From: Candidatus Mcinerneyibacteriota bacterium
Lineage (GTDB): Bacteria > AUK180 > JAQVHJ01
Reading direction: 5' to 3'
Assembly: GCA_030630935.1 (NCBI GenBank)
Contig: DAOVMD010000051.1
Span: 1 to 11,618 of the forward strand
DNA length: 11,618 bases
Below the pieces are notes generated by a model that saw only the letters and a list, made by a program, of their open reading frames with translations, ran no database searches and had not been told where the DNA came from. The position numbers and the translations under genes were made by a program. Shown piece after piece: positions 6,336-8,924 of this stretch (positions within the stretch are counted from its first letter, which is position 1; each line of letters starts with the position of its first letter).

Positions 6336-6356
6336 ATGACTTATAAAGGATTAACA

Positions 6357-8024
6357 ATGAAAAAACTCATCTTAACATTTTTATTAATTCTACTTATGCT
6401 TCCTGTTGTATATTGTGAGACGAATAATGATTACCTGCCAGACCTGATTCCCTATCGGAAGGGAGATAAGTGGGGTTTCTGTGACAAAGACAAAAACATC
6501 GTGATTAAGTGTCAATATGATAAGGTTGGAATGTTTTATAAAAATTTTGCAAAGGTATATGTAAATAATAAGATAGGGTGTGTAATTAATAAAGATGGCG
6601 TAAAAATTACTCCTGTTAAATATGAGGAAATATCTTATTTCGCTGAAGGAATGAGTGCAGTTAAATTCGAAGAAAAATGGGGGTATATAGATGAATCAGG
6701 AATTGAAGTTATCCCGGTAAGATATGATAGAGTTTATAATTTTTCAAAAGGTTTTGGCAAAGTAGAATTAAATAATAAGTGGGGGTTTGTTAACAAACAA
6801 GGCGAAGAAATTATTCCTTTAATTTATGATGATATTGAGTATTTTTCAGATGGACTTGCATCAGTAAAAAGAGACAATAAATATGGCTATATTGATAAAC
6901 AAGGGAAGCAAGTAATTCCACTTATATATAATAGAGCCCTTGATTTTAAAAAAGGTATTGCAAGAGTAGAGAAAGACAACAAATGGGGACTTATAGATAC
7001 TAAAGGTAATGAAATATTAAAATGCAATTATGATTTTGTTGGGGGATTAGATGACAACTATATATGGGTTGAACAAAACAAAAAATACGGATATATTACT
7101 AAAGAAGGTAAAGAAGTAATTCCTGTAAAATATGATAACATTAGATATTTTGGTAGTGGACTTTTTAGGGTTACACTTAATGATAAATATGGTTTGGTAA
7201 ACAATAAAAACGAGGAAATCATTCCAATCAAATATGATAAAATTATGCCTTGTCAGACGGCGTGTATTGTTACAGTTATGTTAAGATCTCCTTGTAGCAA
7301 TGAAGAAAATCAACCAATTCAAGATATTGAAAAAATCGAGACTGAAAAAAAATTAAATAAGATATTAATCCCTGTTTGCTTAGATAAAAAATACGGGTTC
7401 TTAAATATTAAAGGTGAAGAAGTTATTCCAATTAAATATGATGATGTTAAATCATTTTCACATTCTGATTGTAAACATACAAAGGTTATGTTAAATAAAA
7501 AAATTGGTTATATTAATAGAGAAGGAGTAGAAATCATTCCAATCAAATTTGATGAAATTGCTGACATCGGCTCTTATAGTGAATTAATCCCAGTGCGAAT
7601 AGGGAAGAAATGGGGCTTTGTGAATGAGAACGGTAAACAGATAATAAAACCAAAATATGAACATGTGGGAAGTTGGGGAGGAAAAGTGCCACATTGGGAT
7701 GAAAGAGTGAGATATTGGGAAGGATACGAGGGAAGAATTCCTGTTAAATATAAAGGGAAGTTTGGAATTATTAACAAGCGAGGGAAAAAATTAACAAAGT
7801 TTAAATATGACAAGATAGACCATAGGACGAATGAAAAATTGATTATGGTCGGTCTAAATGGGAAAATAGGATTTGTGGATCTAAATGGAAAAGTTGTTAT
7901 TCCCATTAAATATGATAGATTTTACGGTTATTTACCATTATTTGAAGATGGATTATTAAAAATAAAGTATAACGGTAAATGTGGTTACATAGACAAGAAC
8001 GGAACAGAATATTGGGAAGACTAA
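6357..8024 (+). CDS. Secreted WG-repeat protein
   Basis: The better start is ATG 6357, with AAGGA 6 nt upstream and a signal peptide directly after it. The frame is also open from 6336. The 555-residue product starts with a hydrophobic signal (1-19, ending PVVYC). A lipobox is not convincing because Tyr precedes Cys 20. The rest is about 14 WG repeats with the pattern (K)WGF/YGY-x3-G-x-E-I/V-I-P-(x)-K-Y-D-x-I. WG repeats form beta-rich scaffolds of poorly known function, often at the cell surface. The repeat around nt 7250-7370 carries a longer insertion (CQTACIV to KLNKILIP), and the stretch near nt 7670-7740 is Trp-rich. It is translated after the pseudopilin-like gene from a shared promoter. 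Its 5' end has a decayed duplicate just downstream. Confidence 0.9.
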   Translation: MKKLILTFLLILLMLPVVYCETNNDYLPDLIPYRKGDKWGFCDKDKNIVIKCQYDKVGMFYKNFAKVYVNNKIGCVINKDGVKITPVKYEEISYFAEGMSAVKFEEKWGYIDESGIEVIPVRYDRVYNFSKGFGKVELNNKWGFVNKQGEEIIPLIYDDIEYFSDGLASVKRDNKYGYIDKQGKQVIPLIYNRALDFKKGIARVEKDNKWGLIDTKGNEILKCNYDFVGGLDDNYIWVEQNKKYGYITKEGKEVIPVKYDNIRYFGSGLFRVTLNDKYGLVNNKNEEIIPIKYDKIMPCQTACIVTVMLRSPCSNEENQPIQDIEKIETEKKLNKILIPVCLDKKYGFLNIKGEEVIPIKYDDVKSFSHSDCKHTKVMLNKKIGYINREGVEIIPIKFDEIADIGSYSELIPVRIGKKWGFVNENGKQIIKPKYEHVGSWGGKVPHWDERVRYWEGYEGRIPVKYKGKFGIINKRGKKLTKFKYDKIDHRTNEKLIMVGLNGKIGFVDLNGKVVIPIKYDRFYGYLPLFEDGLLKIKYNGKCGYIDKNGTEYWED

Positions 8025-8029
8025 AATAA

Positions 8030-8086
8030 ATAAAAAAACTCATCTTAATATTTTTATTAATTATACTCATCTTTCCTGTGGTGTAG
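8030..8086 (+). pseudogene. Decayed copy of the WG gene's signal-peptide region
   Basis: ATA-AAA-AAA-CTC-ATC-TTA and onward encodes KKLILIFLLIILIFPVV and then TAG. It matches the first 18 codons of the WG gene (KKLILTFLLILLMLPVV) and, less closely, those of the 8952 gene. The initiation ATG has become ATA. An apparent 4-bp deletion around the VYC codons creates the TAG; beyond it GAGAACAA still resembles the WG gene's GAGACGAA. About 30 bp further on, the sequence runs into the left terminal repeat of the GxxExxY cassette. I infer a third gene of this operon, destroyed or truncated, perhaps by that insertion. Confidence 0.65.
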
Positions 8087-8116
8087 AGAACAACCAAAAG
8101 AAAAAAAACAAAAAGC

Positions 8117-8147
8117 TTTTAACAGGGATGTACGGGATGTACGGGAT
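8117..8147 (+). repeat. Left terminal repeat of the GxxExxY cassette
   Basis: ACAGGGATG is followed by two perfect copies of TACGGGATG (8131-8139 and 8140-8148). The outermost TTAACAGGG mirrors the CCCTGTTAA at the right end and at the solo arrays. Confidence 0.8.
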
Positions 8148-8205
8148 GAAAAAAAAGCAAAAGCAAAAAAGAAAGATATTTAACTCGAGTCATATATAAT
8201 TTAAA

Positions 8206-8610
8206 TTATAATCCTTGTTTTATTATTTCATAGAAGTTATCTATTCTTTTAAATATAACTTTATTTTCTGCAAAGTTAACTAATAGCCCCACTAGAATTT
8301 TTGATGCTCTTAGCTGGGAAATTATTTGAGCTTTATGATTATCATTTAATTCAGTGACAGCTTTAACCTCAATTATTATAGAGTCTTCTACAACAACATC
8401 AGGAATATAATAAATTAATACTTCATCATCATAATAGACTGGCATTTGTTTTTCACTTTCAACATTATTAAACTTTTTTCTTAACTCTTTTAATACGGCT
8501 AAATGATAAGCTTTTTCACTAAAACCAGGTCCAAGCTTATTATGAACAATAAAAAAGATTTCAATTATTTTTTCTGTAATTACCCCATATTTTGTATCAT
8601 CCCATTTCAT
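8206..8610 (-). CDS. GxxExxY (PDDEXK_3) family nuclease-fold protein
   Basis: A 134-residue protein of typical full length for this family. The name-giving motif is G29-F-S-E32-K-A-Y35. The PD-(D/E)xK core is P70-D71, then E81-V-K83, with E32 as a possible extra acidic ligand. HKAQIISQLRAS and LLVNFAENKVIFKRI complete the fold. The family's biochemical role is not established. An endonuclease-like activity on DNA is suggested by the fold. The start has a perfect AAGGAGGT site 5 nt upstream, the strongest in the window. It is the only gene between two iteron-built inverted repeats and runs opposite to all flanking genes, which suggests it arrived as a cassette. No clear promoter is seen on the minus strand. 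Confidence 0.93.
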   Translation of the reverse strand: MKWDDTKYGVITEKIIEIFFIVHNKLGPGFSEKAYHLAVLKELRKKFNNVESEKQMPVYYDDEVLIYYIPDVVVEDSIIIEVKAVTELNDNHKAQIISQLRASKILVGLLVNFAENKVIFKRIDNFYEIIKQGL

Positions 8611-8645
8611 CTCAACCTCCTTAATATTATTTTTTTTAAGTTTTT

Positions 8646-8676
8646 ATCCCGTCCATCCCGTCCATCCCTGTTAAAA
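8646..8676 (-). repeat. Right terminal repeat of the GxxExxY cassette
   Basis: On the plus strand two copies of ATCCCGTCC (8646-8654, 8655-8663) are followed by ATCCCTGTTAAAA. This is the same iteron logic as the left end, in inverted orientation, with CCCTGTTAA outermost. Confidence 0.8.
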
Positions 8677-8890
8677 TAGAAAAGTTTGAGCGCATCGCAG
8701 CGAAGCAAGATCTAGCTTGCGTCAAGCGAGTCAAATTATAATTAACTTTCTGTTTATTGAAGAATCTTTAGATTTCCCTCAATCCATTTGATTAATTCAT
8801 CCTGTTGATGAATATTTTCATAGACATGTTATAACATATACAGAGGCTTTTGTCCAGCATTTTTACAGAATAATTTATAATATTGTTTTT
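8677..8890. other. Intergenic stretch with degenerate GAGCGAAGCGAG element and hairpins
   Basis: GTTTGAGCGCATCGCAGCG at 8684-8702 is an altered GAGCGAAGCGAG context interrupted by GCAAG-ATCTAG-CTTGC, itself a hairpin (8705-8720). Further right are a 7-bp stem ATTCATC/GATGAAT (8795-8801 with 8807-8813) and a perfect 12-bp palindrome ATGTTATAACAT (8826-8837), about 60 bp upstream of the next -35 box. The palindrome could be an operator. No gene is seen. Confidence 0.45.
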
Positions 8891-8895
8891 TCAAT

Positions 8896-8924
8896 TTGAC
8901 AAACATTAGCATTTATAGTATAAT
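8896..8924 (+). promoter_or_regulatory. Sigma70-type promoter of the 8952 gene
   Basis: TTGACA (8896-8901), 17 bp, TATAAT (8919-8924). It sits in AATTTGACAAA and TTATAGTATAATAATA contexts that recur almost exactly at 9904-9937. Predicted start near 8931. Confidence 0.87.

Follow-up and report, generated by a model that had tools for sequence, protein, structure and literature searches.

The window analysed here, which is the whole 11,618-nucleotide stretch taken from the genome of a Candidatus Mcinerneyibacteriota bacterium, holds a cassette of 560 bp in total, in which one GxxExxY gene lies between two inverted arrays of short direct repeats (iterons). Its features are the following:

8117..8152, plus strand: left terminal arm, TTTTAACAGGGATGTACGGGATGTACGGGATGAAAA; three GGGAT words in 9-bp units, reading inward
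8206..8610, minus strand: GxxExxY gene, 134 aa; PD-(D/E)XK fold, Cas4/lambda-exonuclease-like predicted structure
8206..8246, minus strand: C-terminal tail, from R122 onward; the homologous tail predicts word base 2 in relatives
8362..8403, minus strand: codons of residues 70–83, with PD (70–71) and ExK (81–83); intact predicted catalytic motif
8572..8592, minus strand: codons of residues 7–13, start of helix 1; homologous positions predict word bases 4 and 5 in relatives
8615..8622, minus strand: Shine-Dalgarno sequence AAGGAGGT, upstream of the GxxExxY ATG
8641..8676, minus strand: right terminal arm, inverted; TTTTAACAGGGATGGACGGGATGGACGGGATAAAAA on the minus strand

The two arms of 36 nt are 488 nt apart and complementary at 33 of 36 positions (92%); an earlier note on this DNA had counted 29 of 31 agreeing bases, which describes this pairing over 31 nt only. 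The other elements that it listed are all present, namely the iteron units (GGGATGTAC / GGGATGGAC) with a repeat length of 9 bp, the outer ends TTTTAACAGGG / CCCTGTTAAAA, the Shine-Dalgarno sequence and a gene transcribed against its neighbours. Its statement that no transposase is present also holds, the GxxExxY gene being the only open reading frame (ORF) of at least 80 aa between the arms, and no known transposase or recombinase was found among the window ORFs scanned. Positions 7900–8900 gave no Rfam match, hence no known RNA element. Directly left of the cassette, 6336–8024 encode a WG-repeat protein with about 11 repeats, and the right arm is adjoined by a second interspersed repeat (GAGCGCATCGCAGCGAAGCAAGATCTAGCTTGCGTCAAGCGAGTC..., 8687–8735) with more than 10 other copies in the genome.

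The assignment of the protein to the GxxExxY family was confirmed by its matches to TIGR04256 (E 4.7e-34, 117.2 bits; curated cut-off 35) and PF13366 (E 1.1e-32, 113.2 bits; curated cut-off 22). No relative was found in the PDB by sequence. The best structural match of its model (pLDDT 93, pTM 0.86) is Cas4 SSO0001 (PDB 4ic1; Z 10.0, E 7.5e-5), other near folds being restriction-endonuclease-like folds and lambda-type exonucleases. With PD at residues 70–71, EVK at 81–83 and a model that matches Cas4, the protein has the predicted PD-(D/E)XK fold and is a putative nuclease. The catalytic D, E, and K are invariant across 28 aligned proteins, and D-n-ExK is intact in 131 of 141 flanked genes. 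The QxxxY motif, typical of the RecB/Cas4 group, occurs in 129 of 141 relatives; the window protein has QIISQ instead. Cas4 proteins contain Fe-S cysteines; the window protein is cysteine-free, and there is no cas gene among the window ORFs scanned, so that its likeness to Cas4 appears, from the model, to be one of fold only. One study reports a GxxExxY match where another program calls cas4 (PMC8934634).

The source genome encodes six GxxExxY genes. By reading their flanks, we found inverted or partial iteron arrays beside five of them and a weaker instance at C351; four of the six pass the automatic flank score. Each gene has its own word: GGGATGTAC in the window, ACGAGACTT at C42, GAGAACTNAC at C69, CACAGAG at C28, and CACGAAG at C208. 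The array pattern of the window has 15 perfect copies in this genome (reversed control pattern, 0), of which the 13 outside the cassette are solo arrays of the same word that have no GxxExxY gene within 1.5 kb. Elsewhere in the genome (G000:C85, locus L015, 1501–1681), three arrays with different words stand side by side, each starting with TTAACAGGGA.

The earlier note had proposed that the flanks of GxxExxY genes in related genomes be inspected. We did so at 200 loci, drawn from the relatives of the window, one densely positive phylum, and named genomes from Chloroflexota, Acidobacteria, Cyanobacteria, Planctomycetota, Verrucomicrobiota, Bacteroidota, several proteobacterial classes, Ignavibacteria, the archaeon Methanothrix, and others; for the scan of genome contigs, one clade was used instead of A1, which was too diverse. 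Inverted iteron arms with a score of at least 30 flank 70.5% of the 200 loci; among 103 held-out loci the share is 78.6%, and among the 53 of these that come from another phylum it is 92.5%. Equally frequent inverted repeats around unrelated genes, which the earlier note had named as adverse, are not what the controls show: only 1.3% of 618 displaced windows, taken from comparable loci, reach the same score, and so do 6.3% of flank pairs that were mismatched and 1% of shuffles. The flanks of the window's GxxExxY gene score 57; the maximum among the displaced windows is 48. In the common plan, an arm has TT[AC]ACC at its outer end, followed gene-ward by usually three 7-base words, mostly CRCNRAK, spaced by 8–9 bp if the last base is G and by 9–10 bp if it is T. 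The gene is multi-copy in many genomes, and a single genome may hold up to 22 GxxExxY matches, some with internal stop codons.

About a fifth to a third of the GxxExxY genes have no detectable arms, some of them in operons, and both the arm-less share and the operon-embedded genes count against the cassette reading. Orthologs in operons without iterons, which the earlier note had set as grounds for refutation, do exist, as a minority. In plasmid records from Sphingomonas and Bacteroides (L262, L259), GxxExxY genes lie in operons (fabD-fabG; downstream of radA), and the Sphingomonas gene leaves no room for iterons; these two are possibly domesticated copies. Plasmids gave seven distant GxxExxY matches, some operon-embedded, and phages gave no relative with a CACAGAG-clade protein as the query.

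Comparisons between genomes bear on the mobility of these cassettes. In the phylum of G053, GxxExxY genes that are 90–97% identical occur in different genomes with unrelated distant flanks, and in several pairs the similarity stops about 25 bp or less from the outer ends of the arms, cleanly so in L451/L464, L464/L469, and at the right end of L452/L453; in less clean pairs, some similarity blocks run further or stop near the gene. We located orthologous sites in sister species by a query made of the joined flanks. At a site flanked by two apparent efflux-pump subunit genes, the cassette is complete in two species, G138 keeps both arms and the first part of the gene, and other species have no cassette; at another orthologous site, the cassette is present in G133 and absent in its sister species G134. 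As to the empty sites that the earlier note had suggested looking for, sister species gave sites that lack the cassette; no precise empty site was found within a species, and the intergenic regions that were compared have diverged. Likewise, no target-site duplication of 3–9 bp rose above the control, the end positions being uncertain by a few bases. In the relatives, then, the unit is found at unrelated sites and is absent at orthologous ones, as is expected of a mobile element in general, and the mobility of GxxExxY cassettes is well supported there by sequence comparison. Two further observations concern these sites: in two sister species (G139 and G140; L354, L356), the efflux site holds a different inverted-repeat mini element, of the GACAGAAAAATG type, and the site of the G088 cassette (L217) is occupied in G089 (L365) by some 680 bp of unrelated inserted DNA.

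The iteron word varies with the protein. Arm-word similarity between nearest protein neighbours in other genomes is 0.364, against 0.117 when permuted; when words were permuted within genomes only, 1 of 5000 permutations reached the observed value, which indicates that the word follows the protein and not the genome. Single positions account for this link. Base 5 depends on the residues at −17 and −16, numbered relative to the G of GxxExxY: it is G with T, or with S combined with E, G, or D, and A with S combined with N, Y, H, K, A, S, or T, or with A or V. This rule, fixed on 103 loci, was correct at all 45 callable held-out loci (25 G, 20 A) and at 130 of 135 overall. Among 56 disjoint closest pairs that differ at base 5, 48 were callable, with 43 right on both members and none reversed, and the tree shows no fewer than 21 changes of this base. 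For base 4, residues −20 to −22 are predictive (34 of 37 correct among held-out loci), by a rule that is weaker overall, as 18 A-word loci were predicted G. Base 2 is A in 35 of 35 proteins that end about three residues past a conserved R and G in 37 of 38 with L or F at R+5, counts that refer to the pooled set, on which the tail-length and R+4/R+5 predictors were identified afterwards. A rule that used residue +99 for base 2 failed to beat the base rate on held-out loci, and a single-residue rule for base 7 was weak there (39 of 52).

In cross-validation that left out whole clades, the balanced accuracy was 0.83–0.84 for base 2 from the C-terminal tail, and 0.72–0.74 for base 4 and 0.81–0.88 for base 5 from the N-terminal tail; the core body alone gave 0.35–0.52 for these three bases and 0.97 for base 7. 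Because base 7 tracks the whole core body and changed only five times, shared ancestry could explain it. Overlap of arrays with ORFs was rejected as the cause of the link between tails and words, since only 8 of 143 overlap and the accuracy was unchanged without them. Residues 7–13 of the window protein, at the start of helix 1 in the model, correspond to positions −22 to −16, and its T12-E13 together with a word ending in GGAT agrees with the base-5 rule. The window word departs from the CRCNRAK form, including the CRC at base 2, and the residue-base rules consequently apply only to its GAT part. The simplest reading is that the predictive residues would contact the predicted bases directly. 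Word and protein change together, and do so module by module; the GxxExxY protein therefore very probably recognizes the iterons at its own ends, and direct binding is very likely; the link is about as strong as sequence data alone permit.

Covariation would follow from binding alone, and the arm upstream of the gene lies at a median of 45 nt from the core start. Both points suit a scenario in which the iterons are operators, where binding at the two ends would serve solely to regulate the protein's own gene, and movement would have another cause. However, operators would need neither an inverted copy behind the gene nor solo copies elsewhere, and the catalytic residues are conserved, so that we regard this scenario as very improbable. 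The reading that we favour, and consider fairly probable, is that of a minimal mobile element that lacks a transposase and is driven by a PD-(D/E)XK nuclease that reads DNA sequence. In the data, it draws on the association of gene and arrays, their inverted layout, the covariation of word and protein, the relocated copies, and presence or absence between species. According to this model, the 560-bp segment would be one GxxExxY gene between two inverted arrays of a word recognized by its own protein. We infer that several protein copies would bind the arm words, one per word and about one helical turn apart, in an arrangement that would be mirror-image at the two ends. The outer ends would then be cut or trimmed by the PD-(D/E)XK center, after which a copy would reach a new site through repair or recombination by the host, with no fixed target duplication; nuclease activity is thus a good candidate for the driver of the movement. 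The absence of a target-site duplication and of a precise within-species empty site counts against this model, as do the departure of the window word from CRCNRAK and the non-nuclease four-helix-bundle genes described below. The cassette layout and the nuclease-iteron link put forward by the earlier note are well supported by the inverted iterons at 70–79% of the loci, the word that follows the protein and the unrelated sites; the spread may be homing-like or recombination-based, as that note proposed, or transposition-like.

Arrays also occur without the gene. Of 19 genomes with a GxxExxY gene, 15 contain a strict array pattern, versus 3 of 41 without the gene (Fisher p 5e-8), and the pattern is very frequent in one phylum, with a single match for the reversed control. 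Genomes contain up to about 150 arrays but few GxxExxY genes. Many gene-less arrays are solo, and others form convergent pairs about 12–50 bp apart, like miniature cassettes; an internal deletion of a cassette was seen at one site. These pairs and solo arrays may be non-autonomous derivatives or leftovers of cassettes. One genome (G014) has 31 arrays and no GxxExxY match, which again counts against the favoured model. Its arrays are partly convergent pairs 12–14 bp apart (e.g., L271, 1501–1675). One solo array among those examined (L301) lies within a reading frame that resembles, by eye, a methylase gene.

These arrays could alternatively be the targets of homing-like spread, in which the nuclease cuts solo arrays or mini-cassettes and the gene is copied in during repair, the arms serving as homology. 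Gene-less arrays are indeed numerous in the same genomes, and the efflux site has the full cassette in two species and arms without the full gene in a third. Yet the gene fragment that remains between the G138 arms points to a deletion product rather than a target, solo arrays have a single orientation whereas cassette arms are inverted, so that a solo array is not a split target, and the G133 cassette occupies a site without arms in G134; we therefore find homing unlikely. Rather less likely still is a division of labour as between REP sequences and RAYT, in which the arrays spread and may serve the host while GxxExxY is a resident factor. The large excess of arrays over genes (up to about 150 per genome) and the solo arrays of the window word, which have no such gene within 1.5 kb, fit this idea, but the gene has relocated together with its arms and reaches 22 matches per genome, some broken.

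The transposase-less element favoured here resembles several known systems in part. Insertion sequences with MITE derivatives have terminal inverted repeats, internally deleted non-autonomous copies, unrelated sites, and decay, all of which GxxExxY cassettes share; unlike insertion sequences, the cassettes have short-iteron arms, no known transposase or recombinase, and no detected target duplication. A homing endonuclease gene is a small selfish gene for a sequence-specific nuclease, as is proposed for GxxExxY, which, in contrast, lies outside one long target and is itself bounded by its recognition words, in inverted orientation. In some casposons, Cas4-like nucleases are encoded between terminal inverted repeats. 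The predicted GxxExxY fold is closest to that of Cas4 SSO0001, but the cassette has neither Cas1 nor a polymerase and consists, in about 0.5 kb, of the nuclease alone (for casposons and Cas4, see PMC4046053; PDB 4ic1). REP sequences and their RAYT or TnpA-REP transposase (REPtron; e.g., PMC2817692, PMC8266576, PMC3116915) likewise combine one gene between inverted short repeats, gene-less solo or paired copies elsewhere, and a repeat recognized by the protein, as is very likely for GxxExxY. Two papers describe RAYT as a tyrosine (HuH-type) enzyme and REPs as palindromes (PMC6006769, PMC3733652). GxxExxY differs by its PD-(D/E)XK, Cas4-like fold, its direct-repeat iteron arms, and its widely relocated gene; among ORFs of at least 80 aa, there is no HuH (Y1) transposase between the window arms, which are direct iterons with their inverted partner 488 nt away.

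In the literature searched, which lay outside subscription papers and preprints, where a description is possible, we found no account of the GxxExxY-iteron system. Its mentions of GxxExxY do not appear to concern function, and PF13366 and iteron strings appear in unrelated contexts only. Our data suggest that GxxExxY cassettes are an undescribed kind of jumping gene. A family annotated widely without function would gain a testable one, the recognition of its own iteron ends, and a large group of bacterial short interspersed repeats (CACAGAG, CGCAGAG, CACGAAG, CACGGAT, and similar words) would be explained. A type of mobile element with a PD-(D/E)XK enzyme and no transposase would be added to those known. 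The very small protein, whose DNA specificity is apparently set by few residues, offers hundreds of natural protein-word pairs and may shed light on the origin of the partnership between Cas4-like nucleases and mobile DNA.

A parallel case is found in the same genomes, where four-helix-bundle genes (TIGR02436; L229–L258) have inverted 7-bp iteron arms at 15 of 27 loci. Like the GxxExxY cassettes, they are small single genes between inverted iteron arms; they differ in their unrelated protein, 7-bp period, and other words. Such likewise flanked genes would be expected if iteron arrays were coincidental hot spots that attract small genes of any kind. We give this explanation almost no credence, as the iteron period is family-specific (8–10 vs. 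7 bp) and the GxxExxY word is predictable from few residues, a covariation that already contradicts it. Since four-helix-bundle proteins are not nucleases, nuclease chemistry may be dispensable for such cassettes, and family-specific iteron cassettes may form a broader class. We lean slightly towards a wider statement of the favoured model, a separate and very widespread class of transposase-less mobile elements with a Cas4-like nuclease of about 125 residues and a modular residue-to-base code (N-terminal residues to bases 4 and 5, C-terminal tail to base 2), accompanied by a parallel four-helix-bundle heptad class. The arms of the TIGR02436 genes have an autocorrelation of 0.69 at lag 7 and 0.65 at lag 14, and the word differs in most loci.
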